Shown piece after piece: positions 18,066-38,700 of a stretch of 39,386 bases of DNA (the stretch's first letter is position 1; each line of letters opens with the position of its first letter). Where the stretch lies: assembly GCA_903892355.1 (NCBI GenBank), contig CAITIE010000110.1, forward strand, positions 1 through 39,386, read 5' to 3'. The notes under the pieces are model-generated. The model ran no database searches and was not told the DNA's origin. It saw only the letters and a list, made by a program, of their open reading frames with translations. The DNA is from an uncultured Pirellula sp. GTDB taxonomy: Bacteria; Planctomycetota; Planctomycetia; Pirellulales; Pirellulaceae. The position numbers were made by a program, and so were the translations under genes.

Positions 18066-19169
18066 TCACGAAACCCCATCCCGCGTTAACGCCCGCGCTC
18101 GTCGCTTCCAAATAAACCCATCGAGCACGTAATGGGTGATCTGCGGAACCGCGAGCAGCGGCACTAACATCGAATGGACCGATGTCCAATCCTGAGGCGT
18201 CCCAAAAAGCCAACTTCGGTCGTGCCAGACGCCGACATCCCAGAGAAACTCCTCGAGATAAGCCAACCCCCAAAGCACCGCCAAGTAATGGATCCAACGG
18301 TTTCCAATCTTCATGGACTCTCCGCGATCATCGCGCGGCTGGACCCAATAGACGAGTACCAAATAGGGCACTCCATGGGTGATCACATTCGTGACGGTGA
18401 AGGCATAATCCGAATCAAACGTGATGATCCCAACGTACCAGCAAAGCACCGTCGATACGAACATGATTTCTTTGCCGGGATTCACTCTTCGGTCCCGCCA
18501 CGCGCGCACCGCCACACGGATCGCATATGCCACTATCGCAATCCAGTAGATCGCAGCTGCGACCTGCGACAACCAACCGGGCAACGCCACGAAATCCCCT
18601 TGCGTGAACCAAAAGAATTTTCGAGGCAAATGGGTATGCCAGTAGATGAGCGGATATAGGGTCGCCATGTAGATAGCTGCCGTGTCGATCCACCAGCCGA
18701 TCCGCTCCCTATCCCCTTCTTTGGCTCGATAGAGTGCCATCCAACCATACTGTTGCCGTACGAAATGAAATACGGCCAGGTACGCGAGCGCTCGCCAAAA
18801 GACCATTGGCCCTTGTTGGTACAGGAACCAGGAAATCCCAAACCCTAACACTGGCGTCAGCCCGTAAAGCCATGGATGACGACGCAATTCTTGCGGCACA
18901 AAGTAAACCTTAAAGCCCGTGGCATAGACATGCGCAACATCGATCATCAAGATGGTGGCCACCCACAACCAGTCAGGCGTCCCTTCCCCCAGCAATCCCA
19001 GCGGCTCCCCCATCGCTAGCAGTCCAAACGCTACCGCGGTACTTCCCAAGAACGCAAACAGGTCCAACGGCGCATTGAACAGCCACGGATACTCCGAGCC
19101 CGACCCCGCCGCAGGTTCACCGGATGCCCCAGCACCATGGGCCGATGTGCCCACCGTCCCTGAGGCCAT
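18066..19169 (-). CDS. Histidine-rich polytopic membrane protein (last gene of the polyamine/membrane cassette)
   Basis: The 367 residues form about eight hydrophobic segments after a Gly/Ala/Ser-rich N-terminus. Histidines sit in or next to membrane segments: DVAHVY (77-82), FHFVRQQYGW (134-143), YWHTH (176-180), HGVPY (265-269), H316, H332 and HYVLDGF (346-352). Such a pattern could bind a di-iron centre or haem, as in membrane desaturases, hydroxylases or Brp/Blh-type dioxygenases. I cannot match it to a named family. Its start is one base after the stop of the FAD oxidase-like gene, so it is surely co-transcribed. A membrane oxidoreductase working with that flavoprotein is plausible but unproven. 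Confidence 0.82.
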   Translation of the reverse strand: MASGTVGTSAHGAGASGEPAAGSGSEYPWLFNAPLDLFAFLGSTAVAFGLLAMGEPLGLLGEGTPDWLWVATILMIDVAHVYATGFKVYFVPQELRRHPWLYGLTPVLGFGISWFLYQQGPMVFWRALAYLAVFHFVRQQYGWMALYRAKEGDRERIGWWIDTAAIYMATLYPLIYWHTHLPRKFFWFTQGDFVALPGWLSQVAAAIYWIAIVAYAIRVAVRAWRDRRVNPGKEIMFVSTVLCWYVGIITFDSDYAFTVTNVITHGVPYLVLVYWVQPRDDRGESMKIGNRWIHYLAVLWGLAYLEEFLWDVGVWHDRSWLFGTPQDWTSVHSMLVPLLAVPQITHYVLDGFIWKRRARALTRDGVS

Positions 19170-19170
19170 T

Positions 19171-20805
19171 TCAAGCCCGCTCCTTAAGAAACCCTAAAAC
19201 CTCGTCGGCAGCACGAACGCCATGAAAGAATGCCTCTTCCATGAGCGCGATACCGCTGAGGTCCGTATTGGCGAAATGAATGTTCCGATCCGGTTTCGAG
19301 GCCATTTTCCGGGACTCGCTCCAGACAAATCCCGTGTAGGGTTGGACCATCGCATGCCCCCATCGCATAACGTCGATCCTGGTAACGAGCGACCGTATCT
19401 CGGGATGCGCGATCTCCAAATCGGTCATCACCATCTCCGCCCAATCCGCCCACGGGACACTCAGCAATTGCTCCCGTGTGTAACGCGGCTTCGCATCCGC
19501 AAACGGGTAATACCATGTCCAAACCGTCGGACCATAATCGATCCCCGACTGGTGGGTCGAAACGACATAGCCTAGAGACTTGCTCTCGTAGAGCACATTG
19601 TCCCAACTCATCGGGAACCCGCTATCCTTAGGCCGGCCTCGCAGATGCACGTTGGCCACCAACCACCAACCGTACCGAAACGGTTGATCGTTCACCGCAG
19701 TCCCTTCGCGAAATCGCTCGATAACATGCTTGGCGACGAACTGGGGCGCTGCAAAAATCACCCGCTTGGCTCGGTATCCGATCCAGCAGTCTTGATCTTT
19801 GTCAAAGACCACCAGCTCGCACGTTGCATCGCGTCCCGAATCGCCCGACGGCTTCAATCGTGCGACCAGCTTGCGTCGCTGCAGATGCGGTTCGAGCTGT
19901 CGCCGTAAATATTCGACGACGTGACCGTTCCCTGATGGCCAGGTGATGACATCCTGCGATTCATGCGACTCTCGCCGCAATCGTCCGGCATAATACAGGA
20001 TCCCGGCCCATGCGCTCGTCTGATCGATCGTTAGTCCGTAATCATCTCGGCACGCATAATCGACATACCATCGCAATCGAGGGGAATCCCAACCTTGTTC
20101 GTTCATCCAGTCGAGCATTGATACTTGATCGAGCCTGCGCGTTTCCGAATCCTCGGAACTATCCGCAATGGGAAGGGCAAACAATCGCTTCCCTTTCGCA
20201 TCGCGTTTAGTCGACCACTCCAGCATCTTCGCATGAAAATCCGCCACTTGATCCAGGTCATCCTGAGACGCTCCCGGGACGGGAAACAATCCTTCGTGCC
20301 ATTGCCCCTCGGCATAAACCCGCTCTTCGGGCTCCCTGCATAAATACTCTTCCGATACGATCGGGGATCCGTCGGGTGCCACCTCCCGGACAACCCCCAT
20401 CTCTTGCAGGAAATCGATCAAGGCTACATTTTCAGGCATCGGGGTGGTCATGTAATGCGCGCCCCATGGATAGCGGAATCGATCGCGATCGCCGCTGCGC
20501 GAGGTGCCACCTACCTCATCCTCCAGCTCGAGCAGTTCGAACTCCTCAAACCCCGATCGTCGCAGATGCCATCCTGCGGTCAGCCCGGCGATCCCGCCGC
20601 CAACGATCACGACCGGTATTTCTTTCCATTGCTCGATGGCTCCGATCGCGGTCGCTGGGTCCCTCAATCGATGCCCCGTGGCGAAATCGGGACTGAGCAA
20701 CTCTCCCTCAATGCGAACCTCTTGCGGTTTCGAGCATCCCGAAATGGTTGCAGCGGAGATCCCTAGCAAGGAGCTGATCAAGTCGCGGCGATTAATCGTA
20801 GCCAT
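19171..20805 (-). CDS. FAD-dependent amine-oxidase-like oxidoreductase, predicted exported lipoprotein
   Basis: The chosen ATG ([14 protein letters not shown]) gives 544 residues. It shows an RR motif at 6-7, a hydrophobic stretch and a lipobox-like ISGC ending at Cys24, suggesting a Tat-exported lipoprotein. The FAD-binding Rossmann fold follows: [14 protein letters not shown] (65-78), then the ribose-binding [16 protein letters not shown](P)-binding-8/amine-oxidase-like regions include [16 protein letters not shown] and the C-terminal [19 protein letters not shown], near where FAD is usually closed in. The gene start overlaps the end of the aminopropyltransferase-like gene by 14 bases, and it precedes the histidine-rich membrane gene by one base. 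A polyamine-like substrate is suggested only by context. Confidence 0.85.
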
Positions 20806-22318
20806 GCCACTCCTCATCGTAGTATCGCACCAAGGCTTGATTATCCAACCGATTGATCTCGGGCGTCAAACTCGGGATATCTTGTGGAAAGACAAAGAGT
20901 TCATGCAGGTTGCTGTTGTTCAAGAAGCGAAAGGATCCTTGATCGAGCGCCAATTGGAACGCATCCACGTCGGGTTCGCTCAAGCTCGCCAGTGCGTATC
21001 CCCAGATTCCGAACGAAGGGACGGTCGCTTGGAAAGGCCGCACGCGGTACCCTGCCGCTTCCAGGGTTCGAATGATGCACCAATACGATTTAGGGGCCAC
21101 AAGTGGCGAGGTGCATTGAATGCTCACCAGCGAATCCGGGTGGAGTTTGGTCTTTAGCTTCCGGAAGAAGTGGCTGGTGTAGAGTTTGCCGATCGAAAAA
21201 CTCCCTGGGTCCGGAAAATCGATGATGACCGCATCGAATGGATCGACCGCTTCGTTGATCCATACGAAGGCATCTTGGTTCACGACACGGACCCGCGGAT
21301 CGAGCAGCGAGGATTTGTTCAACGCAACCAAAGGTGGAAAGGTCTTCGATAGCTGCGTCATGGCGGGATCGAGGTCGACGAGCAGCACCTCGCGGATCTC
21401 GGGGTATTTGAGGATCTCCCGAACGGCTAACCCATCCCCACCTCCCATGACCAAAACGCGTTCCGGCCGTCGCGATCCGAGCATCGCAGGATGGACGAGC
21501 GCCTCATGATACCGGTACTCATCCACCGAATTGAATTGCAGATGACCGTTCAGGAACAATTGGAAACCGCCTCGTTTATTGGTGATCGCGATTCGCTGGT
21601 ATGGTGATTGCGACGTGTGGATGACGTTACCACCGAGGGTGCTTTCCTCCGCGAACTGGGTCAACTGATCCGCTTTGAGCAACCCGACCACCAAGATCCC
21701 CATCACGACAATCGAACGCCATCGCAAACTGGACACATTCCGTGGGTTCAGCAGCGGTTTTAAAAGAAACGTGCTCCACAAACCAACGCATGCATTCAAT
21801 ATCCCGAATACCAATGATGTTCGGACCAAACCGAGGTACGGAACGAAGACCAGCGGGAACAGCAGCGATGCGATCAGGGCACCGATGTAATCAAACGCCA
21901 GCACGCGCGAAACCAAATCGCTGAAGTCGAGATGCTCTTTGAGGATCCGCATCAGCAGGGGCAACTCGAGCCCCACAAAAACCCCGACGGCAAATACGGT
22001 TCCCAGCAGCAGTGGGCGGAACCAGTCGACCCACGGAAACGCGACAAAGAGTAGAGGGGCCGAGATCCCACCGAGAAAGGCGAGGGCCAATTCAATCTCG
22101 ATAAAGGCCCGCGCGAGTTGCCTCTCGATGTACCGCGATAGCCATGCTCCAACCCCCATGGCGGAAAGATAAGTCCCGATCACCAACGAGAACTGGGTGA
22201 CCGAATCCCCCAATACGTAACTTGCCAATGTGCCGGCCAGCAATTCATAGATCAAGCCACAGATGGCGATGACCAGTACATTGAGGTACAGCAGAAACAG
22301 CGGAGCGCGATTCAGCAT
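20792..22318 (-). CDS. Membrane-anchored spermidine-synthase-like aminopropyltransferase
   Basis: Residues 1-215 hold about seven transmembrane segments. Residues 230-508 form a SpeE-type Rossmann methyltransferase fold. The catalytic part has YQRIAI, DEYRYHE (266-272), [11 protein letters not shown] (GGGDG 292-296), the ribose-binding VDLD (314-317) and IIDFPDP (365-371). These correspond to the decarboxylated-SAM site and the gate and catalytic aspartates of spermidine synthase. FPDPGSF..GKLY is a variant typical of the membrane-fused subfamily. Family knowledge predicts aminopropyl transfer from decarboxylated SAM, and the cassette's SpeD would make that donor. The acceptor is unknown. The start follows DUF350 by 9 bases. 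Confidence 0.93.
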
Positions 22319-22327
22319 CGATTTGGT

Positions 22328-22633
22328 TTAGCCTAAAATCGATGCGGCGATAATGATCGCGATCCCGATCACAATCGCACCGACGATGATCGCGAGGGCC
22401 GTGTTATGCTCGTCGACGATCTCTTTGGTGATCGAAAAGCGAGTCAGTTTCTCCATCAGGAAAATGGCGAGGAAAAGGACCACAATCCCGACGACCGAAA
22501 AAATAGCTGCCGCTGCAAGATGGTATCCGAGCAGCCCCGTTCGAGCTTCGCTCACCACCGGCTCCAATTGCGCAAGCACCGCAGAACGTTGCATTGCAGA
22601 AACAAGACCATCATAAGAAACGATTTCTATCAT
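22328..22633 (-). CDS. DUF350 (YjfL-like) small membrane protein
   Basis: The 101 residues contain two hydrophobic segments of a DUF350 unit: LAAAAIFSVVGIVVLFLAIF around 40-59, and ALAIIVGAIVIGIAIIIAAS near the end. Between them lies EKLTRFSITKEIVDEHNTALA, with the conserved E..N.A pattern of the family. The ATG overlaps the TGA of the 61-residue gene as TGATG, which suggests translational coupling. A GTG one codon earlier is an alternative start. DUF350 proteins recur in membrane-stress and polyamine or glutathionylspermidine-type gene neighbourhoods. Their biochemical role is not known. Confidence 0.88.
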   Translation of the reverse strand: MIEIVSYDGLVSAMQRSAVLAQLEPVVSEARTGLLGYHLAAAAIFSVVGIVVLFLAIFLMEKLTRFSITKEIVDEHNTALAIIVGAIVIGIAIIIAASILG

Positions 22634-22818
22634 CACTTACCCCCTCCCCAAGACCCACCGCTGGAACGGCCCGAAGAGCCGCCGCCATAAAAAAATGAAC
22701 TCCCGCCGCTCGAGGATGAATCCATGTCAGGCATCTTCCATCCACTGTACGCCGCGTACGCAAACCAAGCACAAACGAGTATTCCCGTCGCCAAATAGCC
22801 GTTGAAAGCTGTATTCAA
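22633..22818 (-). CDS. Small Gly/Ser-rich single-pass membrane protein
   Basis: This 61-residue protein has one hydrophobic segment (ATGILVCAWFAYAAYSGW) and then a Ser/Gly-rich tail with repeated GGSS and GGG. The start is a TTG preceded by a strong GAGGGAG ribosome-binding site, which explains why a simple ATG search would miss it. It is embedded between the DUF4178 gene (35-bp gap) and DUF350 (1-base overlap) on the same strand, so it is very probably a real cassette member. It has no recognised family. The flexible tail could be a linker or interaction surface. Confidence 0.7.
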   Translation of the reverse strand: MNTAFNGYLATGILVCAWFAYAAYSGWKMPDMDSSSSGGSSFFYGGGSSGRSSGGSWGGGK

Positions 22819-22853
22819 TTTCGAATCTCCCTCTTTCCGGCAGCCGGACTCAA

Positions 22854-24428
22854 CTAGCTCTGAGCATATGGATTGAAATCGCTATTCCGCCAACGCTGTG
22901 TTTCATAAGACCACCTGTAGAGCAAAACGATAATCGGATACAGGGTTACAAAACCCATCGCAATCATCAGCAATGTGCCATCGGGGCGCCGGTCCGGTCG
23001 CAGCAACCCGATCAGCGTACTGATCATGTAGAGAGCGACAAGGAACGCGATGTTGCTGTACAAAAACCGATAGCCCATTTTCGGAGCGGGTTGGATCGCA
23101 CCCACCCCCAAAGGCCTACGTAAATTGGTTAATGAGAACGCCTTCTCAATCTCGTCAACCGTAACATACACTCCCTTGGAAACGGCGATCTCTTGATTCA
23201 CGGTCTCCGGACCGCTGGTCGCCGTCGGCAATGTCTGCTCAAACGACAGCATGTAGGGTGGTGCGATGTAATCCGAGGTGAATGAGGTCTCTCCGACGGT
23301 TACTCGCCATGGAAACTCACCTACGACGTAGCTAACGATCGCATCTCCGCGGTCAAAGAGTCGGTACGAATCGCCTTGATAACGAATCGTTGTCCCCGAA
23401 GTGATGTTTCCTGGGAAATCTATCTGCTCCACAAAGGACCAGTGGCTGTCATCCGTCTTGACGAGCCAACGGAAATTGACTTCCGGGTTGTAAAGCAGGT
23501 ACTCGCTCCACGGATACGTTTTTCCTTCGTACACAACGTGGCGACGCATGAATCCGACCACGGTGTACTCTTTGCCTTGCAATTTCCCTTTGGAACCCAA
23601 CGGCAGCACCGGTTTGATTTTTCGAGTGCTAAGCGTTTCGAGATACTTGAGTTTGCCTTGATCCGCGTCGAGGAGAGCGTTGCAATTCGGGCAGGTCACC
23701 CGCAACGATTGGTCGGGAGCAAAAAGCTCCAATGAGCCGGCACACTTAGGGCAGTTGAGTTGGAGGGCTTGAACAGTGATGTCTTTGGGCGCCCCCCAGC
23801 CGGAGTTCGGGGTCATCCCCAACGACTCCATCGTCACACGTTTGCCGAGAAAGAACCTAGTCGGCGAACTACTGAAATCAAGCGTCCCGATCGAGCCACC
23901 CTCCGACTTCAAATCGGCGTAGGAATGGGGTAGACCCGGTCGCACAGCCCACGGGATCTCTCCCTCAGCCGCAGCTACCTCAGCGATCGCTTTTTCGGTG
24001 ACCTTCAAGGACTCATCGCGGACTTCGAACGATTGCCCCAGTTCAATCGCATCGAACTGAGCCAAAGCCGATCCCGATTTCAATCGCTGCTCGAACATCA
24101 AGTAGAGATTGCCTTGCGCTTCGGCGAGCCAGCCCCAGCGATCCCCGGGGAAGCTCAAGTACCATTCGTTCCACATCGCGCCCGATGGATGTTTGTACTG
24201 GACGCGTCCGGTCACATGAAAGGCTTTATTCTCCACGCTGCCGGTCATCCCTACCGACAACGGCGAGTTCAAATCGGCGACATCGGCGATCTTGCCGCAG
24301 TCCTCAGGTTTCTTATCCCCGCGAGCAACCACCGAATGGCAGAAATCGCAGATGGTGACCAGCGACGAGCTGACCTGGAATGCAACCGGTCCCCCACATG
24401 CTGGGCAGACCGCAGTACGTGCTTTCAT
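22854..24428 (-). CDS. Double zinc-ribbon DUF4178 membrane protein
   Basis: The protein has 524 residues. It has two zinc ribbons, Cys8/Cys11/Cys27/Cys30 and Cys226/Cys229/Cys246/Cys249. Each is followed by a beta-rich DUF4178-type unit with parallel phrases: HVTGRVQYKHPSGAMWNEWYL versus YTVVGFMRRHVVYEGKTYPW. These end in WYLSFPGDRWGWLAE and YLLYNPEVNFRWLV. Two C-terminal transmembrane segments (about 457-475 and 485-504) anchor it, leaving the repeats in the cytosol. The start is fixed by the ATGA overlap with speD. The internal duplication is clear. DUF4178 is of unknown function but is known to accompany speD and DUF350. Confidence 0.88.
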   Translation of the reverse strand: MKARTAVCPACGGPVAFQVSSSLVTICDFCHSVVARGDKKPEDCGKIADVADLNSPLSVGMTGSVENKAFHVTGRVQYKHPSGAMWNEWYLSFPGDRWGWLAEAQGNLYLMFEQRLKSGSALAQFDAIELGQSFEVRDESLKVTEKAIAEVAAAEGEIPWAVRPGLPHSYADLKSEGGSIGTLDFSSSPTRFFLGKRVTMESLGMTPNSGWGAPKDITVQALQLNCPKCAGSLELFAPDQSLRVTCPNCNALLDADQGKLKYLETLSTRKIKPVLPLGSKGKLQGKEYTVVGFMRRHVVYEGKTYPWSEYLLYNPEVNFRWLVKTDDSHWSFVEQIDFPGNITSGTTIRYQGDSYRLFDRGDAIVSYVVGEFPWRVTVGETSFTSDYIAPPYMLSFEQTLPTATSGPETVNQEIAVSKGVYVTVDEIEKAFSLTNLRRPLGVGAIQPAPKMGYRFLYSNIAFLVALYMISTLIGLLRPDRRPDGTLLMIAMGFVTLYPIIVLLYRWSYETQRWRNSDFNPYAQS

Positions 24429-24880
24429 GGTACTGACTCCCACTGCGGGGCTGTACCGCGAGATCTGGGGTAGCCTCGCTGCATTGGATCGCGGCGCGCA
24501 CCGCGCTCGAAATGCAGGATGTCGCAATGCGTTGCTCCCAACTCGCGTTGGAGAGTCTCAGCCCAGGGCCAATGCGGGATGGCGCGGCAGCAGTACAAAT
24601 TGAAGGTCGCCATTCCAACTTCGGGATACGTGTGGCATGCCAGATGGGACTCGCTGAGCAAGTACAATCCGGTCACGCCAGCAGCACCGGGGAACTGATG
24701 CCACATCGGTTCACCGACGACATGCAATTGCAATTCACGAATAATCGTATCGCAAATGGCCCGCAGCGTCCCCAATTCGCGCAGCCGCTCAGGGATGCAA
24801 TCGAACGCATCGATCACCCATTCGCAACCGATCGTCGTGGCATTCGTCAAGCTCGGATATCCTGCGCGTACTGGCTCCAT
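24425..24880 (-). CDS. speD: S-adenosylmethionine decarboxylase proenzyme (SpeD, class 1b)
   Basis: SpeD self-cleaves to form a pyruvoyl enzyme that turns SAM into decarboxylated SAM, the aminopropyl donor. From ATG 24880 it has 151 residues, slightly longer than typical class 1b enzymes. The processing and active-site motif is SESHLACHTYPE: cleavage is expected before Ser78, with His83 five residues later and Cys98 twenty residues later. This spacing matches the catalytic Ser, His and Cys of the Thermotoga enzyme (63, 68 and 83). It starts 25 bases after the SPFH gene and overlaps DUF4178 by 4 bases. All residues needed for activity appear present. Confidence 0.95.
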   Translation of the reverse strand: MEPVRAGYPSLTNATTIGCEWVIDAFDCIPERLRELGTLRAICDTIIRELQLHVVGEPMWHQFPGAAGVTGLYLLSESHLACHTYPEVGMATFNLYCCRAIPHWPWAETLQRELGATHCDILHFERGARRDPMQRGYPRSRGTAPQWESVP

Positions 24881-24905
24881 CAATCGACGAGTTCGCTTTC
24901 TAGCG

Positions 24906-26039
24906 TTAGGAGGCTGGAGGCGGTGGAGGAGCTGCCGGTGGAGCTGCTGGCGGCGGTGGTGGTGGTGATTGGAAATACATCGCCCACTGAGAAACTTCAC
25001 GGGCTGGTTGCCACGCGGCCATGCCTGCGGTCCAAATCATCGTGTCGCCCTTGAGCTCTGAGCGGGCGATGGCATCCACCATCTGCTGCGAACTAAATGG
25101 CCCCAACGTTTGACCTTGATGGGCGATGTGCCACATCGTGGTGGGCAATGAAATCGACGGGCCCGCAGCAGCGGTCGCTGGTGCACCCATCGGTGCCATT
25201 CGATTCGCCATAGCTAATCCGATCCCGAGCCCTAATCCCTCTGCCGCACCACCACCGGCAGGATTCGCTGCCGCGGTCGTCATCGCTTCTCCCATTTGGT
25301 ACTGCTGGAATCGACCAAGGTCGCCGATGACCTTCATCTTGGTGCTCACATCGAGCGCCTTTTCGACTTCTTCGGGGAGCGAAATGTTGACGATCATCAG
25401 CTGAGGCAGTTCGAGCCCGTACTCGTCGTCGATCCGCTCCTGCACCTTCTCCCTCAATTCGCCGGCTAGCTTGCGATAGTTCGATGCGAAATCGAGTGCC
25501 GCAATCTGGGACGAACCGAGCATGTCGCTCAGCGCTTCGATGATGATCGCGCGGATCAACTCGGTCACTTCGTCGGTTGAAACCTCTGCGTTGGTACCAA
25601 CGATTTCGGTCAGCAAAGCGCGGGGATCGACCGCTTTCAACACATAGGTCCCGAACGCGCGAACCCGGATCGGGCCGAACTCAGGATCCCGCAGCATCAC
25701 CGGGTTAGGCGTTCCCCACTTGAGATCAAGCACAGGCCGCTTGTTGACGAAGTAAACTTCCGCTTTGAACGGGCTGTTGAAACCGTATTTCCATCCCTTG
25801 AGCGTCGACAGGATGGGCAAGTTCGAGGTTGTCAGTTCGTGAGTCCCCGCCTCAAAAATATCGGCGAGCTTTCCTTCGGAGACAAAGATCGCGACCTGAC
25901 CGGGTCGAACGATGAGCTTCGCCCCGTTCTTGATTTCGTTTTGGTACCGAGGGAATCGCCAGACGAGCGTGTTCCGAGAATCATCGAGCCACTCGATGAT
26001 GTCGATAAACTCGCCACGAATTTTGTCGAATAGCCCCAT
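24906..26039 (-). CDS. SPFH-domain protein with C-terminal GYF_2 domain (YdjI-like)
   Basis: The 377-residue protein, first of the cassette, starts MGLFDKIRGEFIDIIEW, a hallmark of the YdjI/virion-core SPFH subfamily. The SPFH core covers about 20-265. A Gly/Ala-rich linker (AAANPAGGGAAEGLGLGIGL) follows, and then a GYF_2 domain (MWHIAHQGQTLGPFSSQQM ... WTAGMAAWQP, about 304-355). It closes with an Ala/Pro-rich tail of about 25 residues. SPFH proteins form membrane-associated scaffolds. No transmembrane helix is seen, so it should sit on the cytosolic face. The frame extends 16 codons upstream, but this start fits the family and the strand. Confidence 0.9.
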   Translation of the reverse strand: MGLFDKIRGEFIDIIEWLDDSRNTLVWRFPRYQNEIKNGAKLIVRPGQVAIFVSEGKLADIFEAGTHELTTSNLPILSTLKGWKYGFNSPFKAEVYFVNKRPVLDLKWGTPNPVMLRDPEFGPIRVRAFGTYVLKAVDPRALLTEIVGTNAEVSTDEVTELIRAIIIEALSDMLGSSQIAALDFASNYRKLAGELREKVQERIDDEYGLELPQLMIVNISLPEEVEKALDVSTKMKVIGDLGRFQQYQMGEAMTTAAANPAGGGAAEGLGLGIGLAMANRMAPMGAPATAAAGPSISLPTTMWHIAHQGQTLGPFSSQQMVDAIARSELKGDTMIWTAGMAAWQPAREVSQWAMYFQSPPPPPPAAPPAAPPPPPAS

Positions 26040-26609: not shown

Positions 26610-28718
26610 CTACAAACCTCCCGTCGGTTTGGTTTCCACTCGACCATCCGCATGCGCGGTGATGTCGATCACCTCATCCCCGATCCGGATGCCGGTGATC
26701 GTTAGCGACGGCCAGTCTTTGGGCAATCGGGGGTGGACGGTGTACCCGTCTGCGGTGGGCTGAAATCCCAAAAACCCATACAGCATGACTTGAGGGACCA
26801 TCACGCTTTCGAGAAACTCTTGATCGAGTCCCAGCCCTCCCGGCGGCCCGCCCCCTTGCAGCAAGCCTCGACCTGGTTTGGCGTAATAGCTACGGTATCC
26901 ACCTTCCGATTGCACCTCGCGGAACCATGCAAGGATCTCTCGCAGCCGCTTCCACGCATCGTCTGGTCCATTGGTCTTTAACCTGGCCATAAGATCAAAG
27001 TAGCTAAAACCGAGCACTGCCCCTCCGTCTTGAACTTGATCGCCCCAAGCAATCGACTCGGGTGCGGACCATACCCAACCATACGTTTCTATGTTGCGTT
27101 TGGTCGTCGCGCGGGGTGCGAATCGCCACCGATAGATGTCGGCTCCTTGAGACGTGTCCCCTTCGATCAGTCGTGTTCCATCGATCCAACCGAGGATCGA
27201 TCGAGCTTGCTCGCTCGTCGCCATTCCGTAATCGATCGCTTCTAAATTGACAAAGGTGAATCCGTAATCGTAGGTCTTGCCATCGCGATCGATCCATCCA
27301 ACAAAACGGCCCTTGGCTGAATCCCAAAACCGCTGTCGAAAATCATCGCGAATTCGAGCGACCAACCGATCGAGTACGTCATGGTCCAGACGCTGCTGCA
27401 TTGCGCGATCTGCCATCGCGTTGTGCTGCAGGGCTTGATCTGCTGTCTCGCTAACTGGCTCTGGTTCCCATTCCGGATGGGAGTTCAAACTCCGTTCTAG
27501 CGCGGCGAAACTCTGCAAGGCATCGGCAAGATACATCGTTGCGATGGCATCGTGGGCTCCGAAGGGGAGCAGATCCCAATAGTTGTTCCCAACTCCTGCT
27601 CCAGGTTTCAACGTCTTTTTACCATCGCTTCCAATTACCAATCCGCTTTTCCCATCATGGCCGACCCACGGCACGACCACATGCGCGTTTGCTTCCACTT
27701 GGAACTCTTCGAGGGCATAACGGATCGCTTTCCGCATGCGGGGCAAGGATGCTTTTAGGAACGTGATATCTTTCGTCCAAAGAAAGGTATCGATACAGCC
27801 TCGCACAAACATCGCGTTGGTGATCGGATGGCGCGTATCGATGGCTGTGATCACTGACTTGAGCTGGATATTGCAGCCCGATGCACCGCGGATTCGGATC
27901 CGGTAGCGGGTTAACAAGCCGGCGTACTCAGGATGTCGATAGAGCGGGATGTTGGCATAAGTCAGCTTCGAGGGCGCAGGGTGCGGGATCGTCATCGCTC
28001 GCGACGGTTTCCAATCGCTCTCGCCCTCGAGCAACCACTCGATCGAGCATTCCGCGGTGGGTGGCAAATCTGTCGCGGTCCACTCGATGCGTGCGAAGGG
28101 TGCGACGATGGTCCCACATCGAAACGGTGGGGTTGTAATTACGATCGTGTCCTCGGAGGCATGCAGTTGCAACCCTTGCGCGGGATCGATCCCAAGCGTT
28201 TCAGCCCCAGCGATTTCCCAACCATCGGTGGATACTGCCGCTTGCAATCGAAAGTTTTGGATCGCCCAGCCTTCGCCTTCGGTCGAAAAATGAAACCCGC
28301 TGCCGGTGCTTTGCTGCCACGCTGGAAACGGCCAACCGTCGCTATGGGCCATCCCGCGATGCTGTTGCATTGCGACATATCCTTCGTCATCGATCCGTCG
28401 GCGGTTGAGCGATCGGAGGTATTGCAGCCGTTTGGTTTCGGAGGCCCAAAGACTTGACCTTGGGAGCCAACCATCCCATAGAGTGCAATCGACATAGGCG
28501 TTGGGGTGATGGAGAGCATGAAGCTCCTCGAGCGATTTCATATCCGACACGAAACCGGGGACGGCAAAGGTTGGCAAAGTCTGCGCATGAGCATGGTTCG
28601 CTCCCACGATTGAAAACGAATCGTTTCCGGCCAGTCCAAGGACGATGGCAGCGATGGTCAAGATCGCTTTTGAGATCGAACGGAAGAAGTGGAAGTCGAG
28701 TCCAAACGGAGTTGCCAT
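26610..28718 (-). CDS. Exported six-hairpin (alpha/alpha-barrel) glycoside-hydrolase-like protein
   Basis: The 702-residue protein has a signal sequence (hydrophobic core AILTIAAIVLGLAG, cleavage-type AHA before Q46). A beta-rich N-terminal part of about 250 residues leads into a helical region with TNAMFVRGCIDTFLW, GVGNNYWDLLPFGAHDAIATMYLADAL and TYGWVWSAPESIAWGD. It ends with a beta-sandwich tail YTVHPRLPKDWPSLTITG. This order is typical of clan GH-L, GH-M or GH78-like glycosidases. I cannot assign a family or catalytic acid. It stands alone and convergent to nothing. It probably acts on an external polysaccharide. Confidence 0.72.
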   Translation of the reverse strand: MATPFGLDFHFFRSISKAILTIAAIVLGLAGNDSFSIVGANHAHAQTLPTFAVPGFVSDMKSLEELHALHHPNAYVDCTLWDGWLPRSSLWASETKRLQYLRSLNRRRIDDEGYVAMQQHRGMAHSDGWPFPAWQQSTGSGFHFSTEGEGWAIQNFRLQAAVSTDGWEIAGAETLGIDPAQGLQLHASEDTIVITTPPFRCGTIVAPFARIEWTATDLPPTAECSIEWLLEGESDWKPSRAMTIPHPAPSKLTYANIPLYRHPEYAGLLTRYRIRIRGASGCNIQLKSVITAIDTRHPITNAMFVRGCIDTFLWTKDITFLKASLPRMRKAIRYALEEFQVEANAHVVVPWVGHDGKSGLVIGSDGKKTLKPGAGVGNNYWDLLPFGAHDAIATMYLADALQSFAALERSLNSHPEWEPEPVSETADQALQHNAMADRAMQQRLDHDVLDRLVARIRDDFRQRFWDSAKGRFVGWIDRDGKTYDYGFTFVNLEAIDYGMATSEQARSILGWIDGTRLIEGDTSQGADIYRWRFAPRATTKRNIETYGWVWSAPESIAWGDQVQDGGAVLGFSYFDLMARLKTNGPDDAWKRLREILAWFREVQSEGGYRSYYAKPGRGLLQGGGPPGGLGLDQEFLESVMVPQVMLYGFLGFQPTADGYTVHPRLPKDWPSLTITGIRIGDEVIDITAHADGRVETKPTGGL

Positions 28719-29745: not shown

Positions 29746-32700
29746 GTGCTCGATTTAAGTTCTCTACGCCGTCACATCGGTTCTCGGTTTCTTCAGCGCC
29801 TCCGGCCAACCTGCTCCTCGAAGAAGAGAAGACTGTTCCCATCGAATCACGACGCGGCTCGCTTGAAAAAGCGACGACGATTGCTGCAGCGGCTTCGATC
29901 GCTTCTCATCGAGCCGCTCGAAGGCCGGATCGCCACCGGCTCCTTGATCCCAATTCCATTGGCAATGATCTCCGAAGCGTTGGACAACGCACGTTACCCG
30001 ATCCCCGCCCAGAGCACCATCGATCCCGTAACAAGACCTTCATCGCCCAACCAACAAACACTCGACCAGCGAACACCATCCCAATCGCAATCTCGAACCC
30101 CTCATCCTGCGTCGACCGAATCGCCGCTCGACCCAAATTCATCAGGCCAACCATCGTCCCAGAATGTGTCGTCGCCAACCACCACTCCAGATCCGCAAGC
30201 CTCCTCGAATTCCGCATTGAATAACGAACGGCTCCTGGATCCGAGCACCCCATCCGATCGCGAGGTCGACTCCAATAGCCATCCGATCCCGTCCGCGGAT
30301 GGAGATTCCGGTGGCAAGGGTGGTGGCTCAGCGGGATCGAGTGACCGGATGACGACCCCGCAGTCCCTTCACGGAGCACCGATACCGGAGGTGCCGCGTC
30401 CCGATCTGCAAGCAAGTGGTGGTAGTCCCAATCCTCAATCATCGCGGCCCATCAGCAATCCACCAGAAGGCGTAGCACCGAGCACCACCAACGCTTCCTC
30501 GGCGGCGAGTGCAACTCCATCAACATCCGCTGTCAGCAGTGCAATCGTTAACAGTTCGTCGAGCGCCGCTGCGTCCTCTTCGAAATCTTCAGATCGACCG
30601 ACTCTCCAACAGGCTCCGCCTGGAAAAACCATCCTGCTCAACGACCTACCATCCGCTCAATGGCGGTTCACGGAGTTCGGCGGTCGTGGAACTAACGCGG
30701 GGAGAGAGCAACAACCGCGCTGGATTGTCGAAGGCAATTCGTTTCTAAGCCAATTGGAGCTCGATTGGAGCCGGCCTGCAGACGTGGACCGCGTGGAGGT
30801 TCGCTTCCGAACGAAATGGGATAGCGACGCGGCGACCATCAACGACGCTTTCGAGATCGCGTGGCTCGACGCCGGCGATCGCTCCCTAGTTCCTGTTATC
30901 CAACCAGGCCGCGATAGTTTCTTCAACTTCAGCGAAGGTGAGAATCCACTGGTAGGTGCCACCACCAGCATCGATCTCAACCCCTTTGGCGGAACGACCA
31001 TCGGAACGGTCGGATTGGACGTATCGACTCTCCCGTCCGGGATGGCTGGAACTTTTGTCTTCAGGTTGATCAACAACGACAACGGTACCAATAACGATGA
31101 CCGGTCGTACGTTCGACTGGATCTCACCAACAGTTCCCCCGATGCCCTGGCGGATGCATTCGAGACCACTGAAGACCAGCCCATTCGGATTTTTTCACCC
31201 GGGGTATTAGCTAACGATCGCGACGTGGACGACGATCCATTGCGAGCGATCTTGGTCACCACAACACAGCATGGAACCATATCGCTGAACGAGGATGGCA
31301 GCTTTAACTATGTTCCAACCAAAAACTTCTCTGGATTGGATACGTTTGTCTATCAAGCCCACGATGGAACCATCGCATCGGCGCCATGCACCGTCACCAT
31401 TCTTGTGTCTGCGGTGAACGATCCACCGGTAGGCCTTCGCGATCACTACTCGTTGTCACGCGACAAGAAGTTCGTCGTCGACGGCACCGAAGGTGTCCTG
31501 CGCAACGACTTCGATCCTGAATCGAGCCCTCTTAAAGCGGTCTTAGTACGCGATACGATATCCGGCCCGATGCACGGAGTGATCGATTTCCGAGACGACG
31601 GTGGATTCACCTACACCCCAGACACCGGCTGGACAGGCAATGACTTTTTCACCTATCGGGTTTCCGATGGCGAAATACTCTCCGAGCCCATAGTTTCCAA
31701 CCTGCGAATAACACCGAGCATCACAGGGGTCTTTGTCGACTCTACGCGATGGAATCCAAGTTTCGCGTTTGCTGCGTCTGGTTACCCAGTCCTTGGCAAT
31801 TCACGCAATCTCCCATGGTTCAACATCAATCAAGTTCGCATCGAGTTCTCCGAGCCGGTTCAACGTATCACCAAAGATGATTTCACGTGGCTTGGCTCTC
31901 CGACCCTAGCCCGCGACTACAACAAGGAACTAACGTTTGAACAACCAACCCCATCGACGTTGGTACTCACCTTGGGCGGGGGCCAAACGCTGTCCACCGA
32001 AAAGATTCTTCTCGGCCTCCGAGAAACCATCCGAGATCTGGACGGAAACTCACTCGATGGTGATGGTAACGGTCAAGGCGGCGACCCGGCGAATCTACGT
32101 TTTCAAGTCGTACCTGGCGATGTCGACGGCAGTGGGTTGGTGTTATCAAACGATGTCACTTTGGTTCGCAACAGCCAAATCGGCATCGGCACCTACGATC
32201 CATTCCGCGATGTGAATGGAAGCTCGCTGATCCTCTCGGACGACGTGACGCTCACCAGAAACAATCAATTAGGGATGCCATCTGCGGATCGCAACCTAGC
32301 CAGTCTTTCGATGGCACCAACTCTGACCACCATCTCCAGCCAGAGCAAATTCTTCACGGTCGATCGAACTGCACAGAACATTTCGCGTTACCGAATCGAT
32401 GGAACCCCATTGCCCGAGATGCGCATCGAGCCTATTGCCTCTCCCCGCGGGATTGCGATGACGGAACGAGGCGACATGGCGTGGGTGCTCGCGTCGAACC
32501 ACACCGTTCACGTCATCGAAACAGCGACCCACCAATCACTTGGCTATTGGAACTCGAAGGTCGGCGACTCCGCACAAGGAATCGCGGTCGACGGATCCTC
32601 CATTTGGACAGTCGATTCCGGCACCGATCTTGTGTACCAATACACGCTCGCCGCAGATCGAACCAACGGTTCGCTAACTCCAGATTTTCAGTTCCAGCTC

Positions 32701-35700
32701 GACACGGCGAATTTCGAACCGACTGGAATCACTACCGACGGGAAAAACCTTTGGATCAGCGATTCCGCGAGCGATGCGGTGTTCGTATATCGCATGGACG
32801 GATCCTTGGTTGGACGCTGGGGTTTAGACACGAGAAACTCGGAGCCCTCAGGTTTAACGCTTAACCCGCAAGGCGGCGAGGACCTCTGGGTCGTCGACCG
32901 AACGGATGCCACGGTCTACACCTACACTGGTGGACTGGGATGGCGTAATGATTCGCACAGTGCATCGAGCTCCTTTGCTCTTTCTGGATCCAACCAATTT
33001 CCAGAGGATATCGCGGATCCGCCACCAGCAGAACCTCTCAACGAACAAACCATCGTACCGGACTACCAGACAACCTCATTCTCGGAGATCAACAACACTC
33101 TACATGTCGAACTCCAACTGAAGAACCAAGCTACCTACGCGATGAAAGGCCCACTGCTACTGGGCGTCCGTAATCTTTCGCGCGGCGATGTCGAACTTCG
33201 GAATCGGGACGGAATCAGCGACGAGGGAATTCCGTACGTTGAGTTCCTCTCCGCAAGCGGACACACCGAATTGGATCGTGGAGAAAACACAGAGACCATT
33301 CATCTGGCATTTCATAACCCTTCGCGAAGTCCATTCACCTATCAGCTGGTTCTTTTTCCGCAACCCAATCGCCCTCCCTCTATCGTCTCCGAACCCAAGA
33401 CCATGGTCCGCGCCGACGGAGCGATCTATCGCTACGATGTGGACGGTGAAGATCCCGATCAAGACAGCCCGTTGATCTATGACTTGTTGGAAGCGCCTGA
33501 CGGGATGAGCATCGATCCAAACTCCGGGGAGATCCACTGGAAGACAGGTCCTGGCGATATCTCAGCTGGCACACATCGGGTGACCGTCCAAGTGATCGAT
33601 CCGAGAGGACTGACTGGCACTCAATCATTCAGTATCCGTGTTTTGCCGATGGATTACGGCAATCATCCACCGGCGTGGATTACAACGCCCGTGGTTTCTG
33701 CCTACGTGAACACCGATTACATCTATCCGTCGAAAGCGATCGATCCAGATGGCGATCGCCTGAATTACTCGCTGATCCAATCCGCAGCTGGAATGACCAT
33801 GGATCCCATCTCCGGCGAACTTCGCTGGCGACCAACCGACGATCAACTTGGTCTTCACGAGGTCATCGTTCGCACGACGGATGATGCTAGACCGAGCCTT
33901 TACGCAGAACAGCAATTCGTCATCCTGGTCGGCAAGCAACCTGGCAATTCAAACCCGGTCATCGTTTCTACCCCGAGCTCGATCTACAACGTCGTCACCC
34001 CGAATCCAGCGGTTGGACCTGTATCGCCAACATCCCCCATCGTGATCAACGTGGGCGATGGCGAGGTATCATCGCATCAAGTAATGTACACTCGACTACC
34101 CACATTACCTCAAGCGGATGTTCTCTTCTTGCTGGATGATACAGCCAGCATGGATCGCTGGGGAAGTTCTACGCGACCTGGCAGCGAATCACTCCTCACT
34201 GCGTTCATGCAGTCGATCGATGGCTTGGTCAAGGCATACCCGGAAACCGATTTTGCGTTCGGTGTGAGTCGGCTAGAGAATTTCGCTCTCTCAGATCCGC
34301 AGAGCGCTCTCAATCGGCCTTTTATCTTGAACCAGCCCATCTATCGAAGCAGCGACGCGGGGTTTGAACGGTTCATCACCCAAGCCCTGATGCGGCGAGC
34401 TCCTGGCGTCGGTGCAGGGACTGTTTCCATTTTCGAGGCTCTCTACCAAGCATCCACGGGACTGGGATTGGATTACGGCAGCGATTCGAAGGATGGAACG
34501 GTCGGACCAGTGAACGGTAGCAACCTCGATAATCACCATTCACTGGATATCCCAGGCCAGACGCTCCTATCGTCCAATGGTGATGTCGCTGCTTTTGATA
34601 CTCCGCGAGAGTTCCGTTACCGGATTCTCAAACTGTCCGATTTTCCCAAGTTACCGTCCTTCAACCTCAATGCACCCATCACCCTATCCGGCAAATTTGA
34701 CGAACCCAGGATCGCTCTAGGATGGAGATTCCAATCGCAGGCATCCCATCAAAAGCTTCGCCTCTCGGCTGCGACGGAGCAAGGCACCGCAGAATGGCTC
34801 GCATTCAACCCGACGGGTGAGCGTATCTACCAAGGACCAAGCAATGTACCGATCGAGATTATGCTTGCGACACCAGGGGAATACACCCTCGTCTTAAACT
34901 CGTTGTCTAACTCGCCATTGAACTACAACAGCACGCTTTCTCTCCATTCCCAAACGCAAACTCTACCTCTGGACCGCAACCAATCAGGGAAAATTCAATA
35001 CCAACAGCAAAGCGACCATTACACATTTTCATTACCTGAAAGCACTACCATCATGGTCGACGTTATGAATCGCGCTCCTGGTGTGCAGTGGACGCTTCGT
35101 GCCCCCGATGGTGTTGCCAAAGCGTCTAACCGCTTCTCCGATGCGGTTGAGGGAACCGATGCTGCCAACGACTCCGGGGACACCCTCTTAAGGCTAGCCC
35201 CAGGTGACTACCAACTAGAAATCAACGCAACGGGGGCGTCAGCATGGCCCCATGAAGCCATCGACTACGCAATCGCCCTTCGAACCTTGCCAGCCATCGC
35301 ACACCCGCCCCTTGCGCCCAACGGAAGCTTATCGATCCCACACGCTACCGATAGGCCTTCGTCCACCAGTTTTTATGGCTTTAGTACGACCACTGCGGGA
35401 CAAGTGATTTCACTAGAGATCCCCGAACGAAGTGTGTTGCCCAACGTTCGTCAGTGGATCGTAGATGCCGATGGCAACGTGCTTCACAACTACTCCAACT
35501 ACAGCAACAGCAGCAACGGAACCAGACCCACGCAATTTCTGATCGCATCGGCAGGCGATTACACCGTTCTCTTCGATGGGGATATCAATCGCGAAGGCGG
35601 GAATCTATCCACAACGATTCGGCTCAATTGCAATTCGGTCGAGGTGCCACCTACAAGCATCTCCGTCTCGCCCAACCAAATCATTGACGGTACGGTGACC

Positions 35701-38700
35701 TCCCCGTCGGGCGTGAATTACAAAATTTCCGTCCCCTCAAACGGGGGCGATCTATATTTCGATCCACTCAGTTTGTCGCCAACACTCGGCTGGACATTGC
35801 TCGCCCCCTCTGGAGCCATCGTCGCTCGATCCAAATGGAACGGGGATGAACTAATCACTGATGACGCACTCCCAAAACTATCCAACAAGCCTCTCCGTCT
35901 GGACCGAAACGGATACTCGTTATTGATCAATAAATTGGCGGACGCTCCCGCAGGACGAGGCACCCCGTTTCAATTTCGATTGATCGACCTAAATAATACC
36001 CCGATCTTCGATGCCGGAACCATCACCCAATCAACCACCAACGAAGTGGGGACCAAGCTAGTTCGAGTGTCAACCGACGGTATCGATTCCAGGTACTTCA
36101 AAGCGGAATCGTTAGGAACGACTCCTTGGAAACTCTATGCACCGGACCATGCACTGCGGTTCGAAGTCGACGGCACCGCAGACGGAGGTTATCAATCCCT
36201 TCGATGGCCGGGCAGCAACCCGAGCTATTTTCTGCTCGATCTCGGGCGTCCATCGGCAGCCATCGGAACTGCCTTGGCGACCATCTATCCCCGTCTGGTC
36301 CATCATTTCGAGTGGTCCAGCGAACAGATGTCCGAAGGGACCTATTGGTCGTCCGAACACGAACACATCGCCGTAGAGAATGAATACCATTTCTCCCTCT
36401 CGAACCCGTCCCATTTTTATTTCGAGCCCAGACCAAACTCTCGCAATTCCGACGCTGACTGGTCGATCCTCGGCAGCCATGGAACCATCGTCGCTCCAAA
36501 AGCATTTTCAGCGTCTGCGGCGGATACCGATCCCCAAGAATCCAACAGTGTTTGGCTTCGCGAAGGGGAATATCGACTGGTTGTACGAAGCCGCTCCGGG
36601 GATGTCGGATTTCGCTTTGTGGACTTGCCCAATGCGGGTGCGCAACTGACTAGCAACCTGATCAATGGTGATGCGGGACCAAATCCGGAAGGAACACGGT
36701 TTTTTGCATTCGATGGCCGCCAAGGAGATTGGAACCGAATTCGATTCACAGAACCAAACACGCGAGGTTCGAGCGGGATCCTCAGAGTTCGCGTCGTGGA
36801 TCCGTTTGGCAGGTTAGTCACCACACGGTTTGTACCCGGACCGATCAACAGTGTTCCTTCGCCCGGCTATGTGGACATCGACCTCGATCTGCCAACCACC
36901 GGGAGGTACTCGGTCATCGTCGAACAGCCTCGCAGCGGAAACCTGACGCGGTCATTCACCATCCAACGAGACTTGAAATCGAATTTTCCAGCCAGCGATG
37001 TTCGATCACTCAGTACCAGCACACCCCATGCCGTGAGCATCGAATCCACGAAGCTTCTGTACGATGCGACGTTTCAATCAGTATCGAGTGAGCGTTATTT
37101 TTTCGATGGTCTAGAAGCCACAGGGGATTATCCAACCGATATCATTTTTGACCAACGAGGTGGTGGTCGGCACTTCTCGAACTCCATGTCGAGCTCCGAC
37201 ATAATTCACTTAAATACAACCAACCCACTCTTGGTGCAAACCTACACCAACAGCGTGCCGATCACCGCGGGCGGAACGCGAGGTGGAGCTGGGTTTCGCC
37301 CTCACTCTGTGCCGATCATCGTCTTGGCAACCGACACGTGGAGCGACGTACGTGCCGCAGGTCAACGCAAAAACACCCAACCGACCGAGGTCATCGGTTA
37401 CGGGGAAAGTGTTGTTCCACAGGATCATTTGTCCGGTGCATTCCTCAACCCGAACCCTAATCCAGGCGAAGCGTTCTCATTTCTCTTCCCGGACCCGAAT
37501 TCGAGTTCAGGTCGAATCCAGTACCGCGACCTAAATATCGGCAATCCTCCCAACGCGAGGATCCTCGAAGACAACATCGTGCGTTCGACCGAAGCAACCA
37601 TCACCAGAGCGATCGATGCCCTTCAGGATCTCGGCGCCTATGTGCTCCCTGTCTTCATGGATTACACCAGTTCCTTCGATTCCCCAGAGCAACGCCAAAT
37701 CCATGAATCGTGGTACGACCTTCCTCAAGCCATCGCTCGGCTAACAGGTGCAACGAATGCCTCGGACAACGATCTGAATACCGGCGATAGCGATTTTTCA
37801 ATCGAGCCGAACCAACCGCTGACCTTCTTCTTCGATGGTTACCGCTCCTCCCAACAAGCGACCCAGCTGACCAGCGCCGTAAGTCAATTCCTGCAGTCGG
37901 GACGACTGGACGTCGACATCATCGCATCCGACCCTTCCATACAAATCCAGACTTCCGGTGCGGTCGAAAATCTCAAGCCCGGTCAGACGGCGAAATTTGA
38001 TATACGGCTGACTGGCGATGGCACCAATCGAACCTTCGACCTTCTTTTTGTTCGCAAAGGAACAGGAAACATCGTCGGCTCGATTCCCGTTCAGATCCAA
38101 CAACCGTACCGTTACCCAGCCCGGGCCGTCGATCCGGATGACGATCCATTGACATTCTCTATGGTCGGCCAATCCCATGGTGCCTCCATCGACCCACGCT
38201 CAGGCCAACTCGCTTGGACGCCTCCCGCTCCTGGTACTTATCCATTCGAAATCAATGTCTCGGATGGGCGAGGTGGTCGCGACGAACAATCGTGGTCGGT
38301 GATCGCCGGCCCCGATCTCTCCATCGCATCGAATCGCTCACCAAACGTCGAAACAATCCCGAATCAAACAGCCTATGTCGGAAACGACTTTACCTACCAA
38401 GTCATTGCAACGGACGAAGATCGAGATCCAATTCTTTATTTCCTACAACCGTCGTCTGCCCGCAGCAGTATTCCTGACGGATTATCGATCGACCGTAAAA
38501 CTGGGGAGATCCACTGGAACGCGAAGTCCGCAACGAGAACCTGGGCAACCGTGCTGGTGGGTGCTCGCGATTCGAAAGGTGGAATCAGCACAACACCGTT
38601 GAAGATCCAAGCTGTCCTGCCACCGAGCGAACCCAACAGTCCCCCTGTGATCGATCCCATCCCAGACCTGCATGTACTCGCAGGCAATTCGATCGACTGG

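Follow-up and report, generated by a model that had tools for sequence, protein, structure and literature searches.

Gene clusters that combine AdoMetDC, MFS-SpdSyn and DUF350 have reportedly been described, in which the acceptor of the membrane-fused aminopropyltransferase (APT) is said to be other than putrescine. The fused enzyme reportedly does not make spermidine, and the fusions are said not to replace SpeE. A cassette of this kind, with the S-adenosylmethionine decarboxylase homologue SpeD, a membrane-fused APT and DUF350, lies at positions 18066-26039 of the DNA analysed here (the window), which is the whole of contig CAITIE010000110.1 (39,386 bases) from an uncultured Pirellula sp. 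with a genome of 6.18 Mb, given as 96.93% complete. We found that a small membrane protein of this cassette has a Gly/Ser-rich tail ending in Gly-Lys, and that this end is conserved across related loci. We tentatively propose, as a reading that may well be right, that the C-terminal lysine of this tail protein is the acceptor of the membrane-fused APT.

Ravi et al. 2024 (PMC11237479) described PspA-CesT/Tir operons with a 7TM-spermine synthase, DUF350, DUF4178 and a lipoprotein and, citing Li et al. 2019, put forward a role in sensing polyamines or in aminopropylating other substrates; in ATP-grasp operons, according to the paper, SpeD and band-7 are accompanied by a polyamine oxidase. The window cassette resembles the former operons in its 7TM-fused spermine-synthase domain found with DUF350 and DUF4178, and in its envelope setting. 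Unlike the window, the passages of that paper on these operons mention neither a lysine tail nor the polytopic membrane protein that we term MbrHis, and they assign SpeD, band-7 and polyamine oxidase to a separate ATP-grasp group. Family scans of the eight cassette proteins detected no CesT/Tir-PspA pair. The features of the cassette are as follows.

24906..26039 (or 26087), minus strand: SPFH/band-7 protein with a C-terminal GYF_2 domain (Pfam Band_7_1, E 1.4e-97; GYF_2, E 1.2e-16)
24425..24880, minus strand: SpeD, class 1b S-adenosylmethionine decarboxylase homologue (AdoMet_dc, E 1.7e-22; TIGR03330, 63.8 bits, below the cut-off of 75.65)
22854..24428, minus strand: double DUF4178 protein with zinc-ribbon-like Cys and two C-terminal hydrophobic segments (PF13785, E 1.6e-32, two stretches)
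22633..22818, minus strand: small membrane protein of 61 aa with a TTG start and a Gly/Ser-rich tail ending GGSWGGGK; proposed acceptor (from the sequence and the Gly-Lys end in 54/54 loci)
22636..22638, minus strand: codon of the C-terminal lysine, proposed aminopropylation site (from the sequence, with Lys at -1 and Gly at -2 in 54/54 loci)
22328..22633, minus strand: DUF350 membrane protein (PF03994, E 1.6e-11)
20792..22318, minus strand: APT with a fused N-terminal 7TM-like region (NCBIfam PRK03612, E 3.6e-191, 636.1 bits)
19171..20805, minus strand: FAD protein, Tat-type lipoprotein (twin Arg and lipobox) with a flavin amine oxidase fold (Amino_oxidase, E 2e-16)
18066..19169, minus strand: MbrHis, polytopic membrane protein carrying conserved His residues (no family matched in Pfam or NCBIfam)

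An initial sequence-only reading had described eight same-strand genes joined by overlaps or short gaps, and this arrangement was confirmed. All eight lie on the minus strand, nearly gapless, with a largest gap of 35 bases and overlaps between SpeD and DUF4178, the small protein and DUF350, and APT and FAD. Gene starts were chosen among candidates, that of SPFH being 26039 or 26087.

We read the tails by position in loci where DUF4178 precedes DUF350 on the same strand, no more than 3 kb apart, omitting duplicates. Most gaps contained one to three open reading frames (ORFs) of at least 35 aa, from which the ORF with a Gly-Lys end was taken; this ORF is consistent in position and size from one locus to the next. 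A Gly-Lys C-terminus was present in 54/54 loci, either on the gap ORF or, in L023 and L133, on the DUF4178 protein itself. These 54 tails represent 34 different last-ten strings, with Lys at -1 and Gly at -2 in every tail and Gly at -3 in 49. Residues -26 to -2 include 12 Lys as compared with 112 Arg, and 42 of the tails are without another Lys. Among 1218 background gene calls of at least 80 aa from these loci, a terminal Lys is present in 10.8% and a terminal Gly-Lys in 1.1% (13); seven of these have a Gly/Ser-rich Gly-Lys end, and by our own reading five of the seven are themselves such tails.

The same end was seen outside this set. The long protein neighbouring each of five more divergent APTs ends in FGGK (L134), FGGGK (L144), SRGGK (L147), FGGGK (L148) or SSGK (L149), the one in L148 having no Pfam match and the one in L134 a single sub-threshold match, and Gly-Lys ends also occur in L152, L151 and L027. 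The divergent APT clusters of L144, L147 and L148 carry several tandem DUF350-like stretches and a Ser/Gly/Arg-tailed protein of ~500 aa, and may be a separate subtype. An APT match was present in 17 plasmid records, 12 of which cover at least 80% of the APT; eight of the 12 were fetched (all but H6, H7, H10 and H12), and a Lys end was present in each of the eight clusters. Three are GK (Gemmatirosa RHGK, Ensifer ESGK, Alteromonas SSGK), four HK (Novosphingobium PTHK, PSHK and PSHK, Burkholderia stagnalis GSHK) and one VK (Tritonibacter NRVK). For the four shorter APT matches that were also fetched (L175-L178), the filter applied picked up no Gly-Lys tail. The tail proteins of Alteromonas and Burkholderia have, by our own reading, lipobox-like starts and should therefore be exported. 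The Lys end is shared by different kinds of tail protein: DUF4178 itself, long proteins without a Pfam family in the distant clusters, and lipoproteins.

A later test, set after the idea had been noted, used Myxococcota, the phylum of Minicystis rosea (L098). Searching 282 genomes with the APT identified 76 places in 74 genomes, of which 60 were fetched, mainly contig-end and partial matches being skipped. Tails were sought over the whole stretch, up to ~6 kb on either side, and profiles were those built from the first locus set. Gly-Lys was found in 44/60 loci (39 by gene calls as Gly-rich ends, five added by direct reading), while the tail of L226 ends in His-Lys. Where DUF4178 lay on the strand, 31/33 loci had Gly-Lys, with L226 besides and L241 missing; the figure was 13/27 without DUF4178.

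ATP-grasp ligase clusters served as a comparison. In E. coli K-12, DUF350 (YjfL) adjoins YjfM and YjfC, and YgiB adjoins YgiC; YjfC and YgiC are named peptide-spermidine ligase in RefSeq and putative acid-amine ligases in solved-structure entries. These systems (yjfIJKLMC and ygiBC, YjfC/YgiC with DUF1190 and DUF350) resemble the window in having a Gly/Ser-rich exported tail protein beside DUF350 and a polyamine-type enzyme. They differ in that the enzyme is an ATP-grasp ligase and the tail ends in Gly, namely HWGG in YjfM and SMGG in YgiB, in place of an APT and a Lys tail. YjfC matches occurred in 147 plasmid records, 40 of which were listed and 11 fetched. In nine of the 11 a tail protein lies next to the ligase, annotated as DUF1190 in four cases and hypothetical or lacking annotation in the other five (two of which were identified by eye), and 9/9 end in Gly. 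No tail protein was found in the ligase clusters L188 and L189. Over all 13 ligase clusters, 11/11 tails found end in Gly, ten of them in Gly-Gly, and none in Lys, whereas the window tail ends in Lys and none of the eight cassette proteins matches ATP-grasp. Ligases of the glutathionylspermidine type couple an amine to the carboxylate of a C-terminal Gly, as established for glutathionylspermidine; an aminopropyltransferase requires an amine acceptor, and the lysine side chain resembles putrescine or cadaverine. A ligase acting on Gly and an APT acting on Lys would give a similar tail end.

The pyruvoyl Ser and the catalytic His and Cys of the window SpeD all match the T. maritima enzyme in an alignment, bearing out the intact active site that the sequence-only reading had assigned to it; the roles of these residues are taken from the relevant part of PMC10407285. 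A Pro of the HT(Y/W/F)PE type is also present, which would favour SAM over ornithine or arginine as substrate if it is, as we read it, the Pro used in PMC10407285; the TIGR03330 score is sub-cut-off. Family membership suggests that SpeD makes decarboxylated S-adenosylmethionine (dcSAM). The APT retains its catalytic motifs, with GGGDG and DFPDP lining up with solved enzymes, and its 636.1 bits on PRK03612 compare with a curated cut-off of 472.

The Gly-Lys ends, the rarity of Lys elsewhere in the tail and the Gly ends found with the ligase together led us to propose the terminal lysine as acceptor. The sequence-only reading had suggested that SAM is decarboxylated, that aminopropyl passes to a membrane-bound acceptor, lipid or peptide, and that the product is oxidised, with an envelope-stress response as another reading; the Gly-Lys end, a feature it did not name, favours the peptide. 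The cassette would then be a protein-modification system of the cell envelope, in which SpeD supplies dcSAM as aminopropyl donor and the APT aminopropylates the Gly-rich tail protein on the side-chain amine of its last lysine, creating a protein-bound polyamine-like end. DUF350, DUF4178 and, where present, SPFH may act as membrane scaffold or regulators. The Tat-exported FAD lipoprotein, with MbrHis as a putative redox or metal partner, would oxidise or trim the modified tail.

The fold of the FAD protein resembles putrescine oxidase and SpdH, among others, and is common to monoamine oxidase (MAO), protoporphyrinogen oxidase, phytoene desaturase and further enzymes; in sequence, the FAD protein matches SpdH through its Rossmann portion. 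MbrHis was modelled with a pLDDT of 88.3, and its His, Asp and Glu sit in predicted membrane helices. It had been called His-rich, which is loose: the His are conserved, with H80, H135 and H265 invariant across 45 relatives and H316 and H346 nearly so. We searched 199 genomes of the phylum, including the window's own, for these proteins (thresholds E 1e-30 for FAD and 1e-40 for APT). FAD was found in 19 genomes, with no match weaker than 1e-103, MbrHis in 16, SpeD in 51 and DUF4178 in 27. APT matches occurred in 26 genomes, 21 with near relatives over the full length (in two pieces in G164) and five with more distant or partial ones. All 19 FAD genomes have the APT, and two further genomes without FAD carry a nearly full-length APT (Fisher test, 1.3e-24, counting related genomes as independent, as do the tests that follow). 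FAD was present in 15/16 MbrHis genomes, the exception being G017 (4.5e-18). PF13785 was matched in 18/19 FAD genomes (5e-18), the exception being G081, where our own profile does find the DUF4178 protein, and SpeD in 14/19 (4.8e-6). In G081, SpeD and MbrHis adjoin each other, apart from the remaining genes.

Seven genomes belonging to a single family (f21) have the APT operon, FAD and MbrHis on three different contigs, and their DUF4178, where it was read, consists of two separate genes. Homologues are thus scattered in part, with arms on separate contigs, yet all three arms co-occur. In five of these seven genomes (L032, L034, L035, L036 and L037), the lone FAD gene adjoins two tandem copies of a ~245-aa gene; the two copies scanned were weakly DUF3108-like, below cut-off.

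The locus scan kept 80 loci out of at least 545 confirmed candidate stretches, mostly from Planctomycetota and Acidobacteriota with some Myxococcota, according to record titles; a few look like mislabelled metagenome-assembled genomes. Among these, L046, L048 and L051 are planctomycete-like cassettes in records titled Kuenenia or Klebsiella, titles that are probably wrong. Profiles were counted in 98 loci and the window (L086 and L117 being duplicates of L021 and L022): APT in 68, DUF350 in 59, DUF4178 in 54, MbrHis in 53, SpeD in 46 and SPFH in 10. The gene order is usually that of the window. Many loci are interrupted by contig ends, and others have FAD without the remaining genes. SPFH, which had been counted as a cassette member, is present in the window but is not constant (10/99 stretches), standing just ahead of SpeD in 9/10. 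The set turns up again in planctomycetes, Acidobacteriota and Myxococcota, and Novosphingobium plasmids carry it together with SPFH and FAD; on that of Novosphingobium ES2-1, the annotated order is SPFH-DUF4178-DUF4178-hypothetical-DUF350-APT-FAD-SpeD. In the 60 Myxococcota stretches, FAD was found in 27 and MbrHis in 21, never without FAD. Since the order recurs in other phyla and FAD and APT co-occur, the cassette goes beyond chance. Profile searches across genomes and loci showed the FAD-MbrHis arm to be conserved along with the core, and the earlier view that both proteins belong with SpeD and APT is well supported by co-occurrence and recurring gene order. L102 (G201) has two opposed cassette-like sets, one APT copy with an internal stop and one DUF4178 protein with its own Gly-Lys tail. 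Outside the cassette, the window contains a very long open frame of 2876 aa at 30754-39384 (plus strand), reaching the contig end and bearing Ig and cadherin-like repeats. Just upstream of the cassette (26610-28718, minus strand) is a 702-aa protein with no Pfam match, by eye of glycoside-hydrolase type.

Several observations weigh against the lysine as acceptor. No Lys tail was in reach in L106 or in 15/60 Myxococcota loci. Because of the kinship among loci, the counts are not independent events, and several tails outside the main set were chosen by eye among listed ORFs. Charges place the APT domain on the outer side, provided that the 7TM count is correct, and dcSAM would not be expected there. 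No SpeD was found in 5/7 f21 genomes that keep the APT and the Gly-Lys tail type (tails read in 6/7); for drafts given as 84-90% complete a single absence carries little weight, yet five of them are hard to account for in this way. The window SpeD and APT are the only PF02675 and PF01564 (Spermine_synth) matches found in the genome, where biosynthetic SpeA is also present, so plain polyamine synthesis is possible. In that case SpeD and APT would yield spermidine, or else N1-aminopropylagmatine with SpeA supplying the agmatine, and the product would be degraded by FAD, whose fold is similar to putrescine oxidase and SpdH among others. The near-complete genome with its single SpeD and single Spermine_synth protein speaks for this, but the APT carries fused membrane segments and goes together with DUF350/DUF4178 and the tail, five APT genomes yielded no SpeD, and such fusions reportedly do not stand in for SpeE; we consider it rather unlikely.

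The tail retained in those five genomes speaks for another reading, with Gly-Lys as a docking, processing or stability signal for assembly of a DUF350/DUF4178/SPFH complex and the APT modifying something else. The constant neighbours are scaffold-like (SPFH, DUF4178, DUF350), and PMC11237479, in the passages concerned, interprets such operons as membrane-stress systems. This explanation is somewhat unlikely in our view, as it leaves unexplained both the scarcity of other Lys in the tail and the pairing of Lys with APT versus Gly with the ATP-grasp ligase. The Lys tail is equally unaccounted for if the acceptor is an amino-lipid whose head group is further oxidised by FAD/MbrHis, which we regard as very unlikely: the membrane fusion of the APT and the His, Asp and Glu in predicted membrane helices of MbrHis would suit it, but no lipid gene was seen as a constant neighbour in flanks surveyed through clustering and a limited sample of Pfam scans.

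Lysine aminopropylation, as we propose it, would be like hypusine in that a lysine side chain is extended with a polyamine part and then oxidised. Hypusine differs in receiving an aminobutyl group from spermidine, on an internal Lys of eIF5A, through unrelated enzymes. An extended form of the proposal, which we judge unlikely as a whole, is a hypusine-like modification outside the cytoplasm: the 7TM half would carry dcSAM across, the outward APT would cap the lysine, and the FAD lipoprotein and the intramembrane His protein would oxidise it, giving a second route, beside the ATP-grasp ligases, to a polyamine-capped tail near DUF350. To the clusters that Li and colleagues reportedly described, our analysis may add a candidate acceptor and the conservation of FAD-MbrHis. 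The core of SpeD, 7TM-APT, DUF350 and DUF4178 is already in print, the FAD-MbrHis arm much less so; added here are the conserved FAD-MbrHis arm and the contrast between Lys and Gly tails. The Gly-Lys end is not described in the passages available of the literature searched, which included PMC11237479, PMC10407285, PMC11107197 and PMC11999265; no search was aimed at peptide-spermidine ligase or Lys tails, and a recent paper may exist.

The membrane-fused APT is widespread, and the Gly-Lys end names one candidate atom as its acceptor, which rests on the conserved Gly-Lys, the scarcity of Lys in the tail and the Gly end in the sister ligase clusters. If this is true, bacteria of several phyla would possess a protein-bound polyamine cap that is tied to envelope scaffolds and reached by two chemistries.

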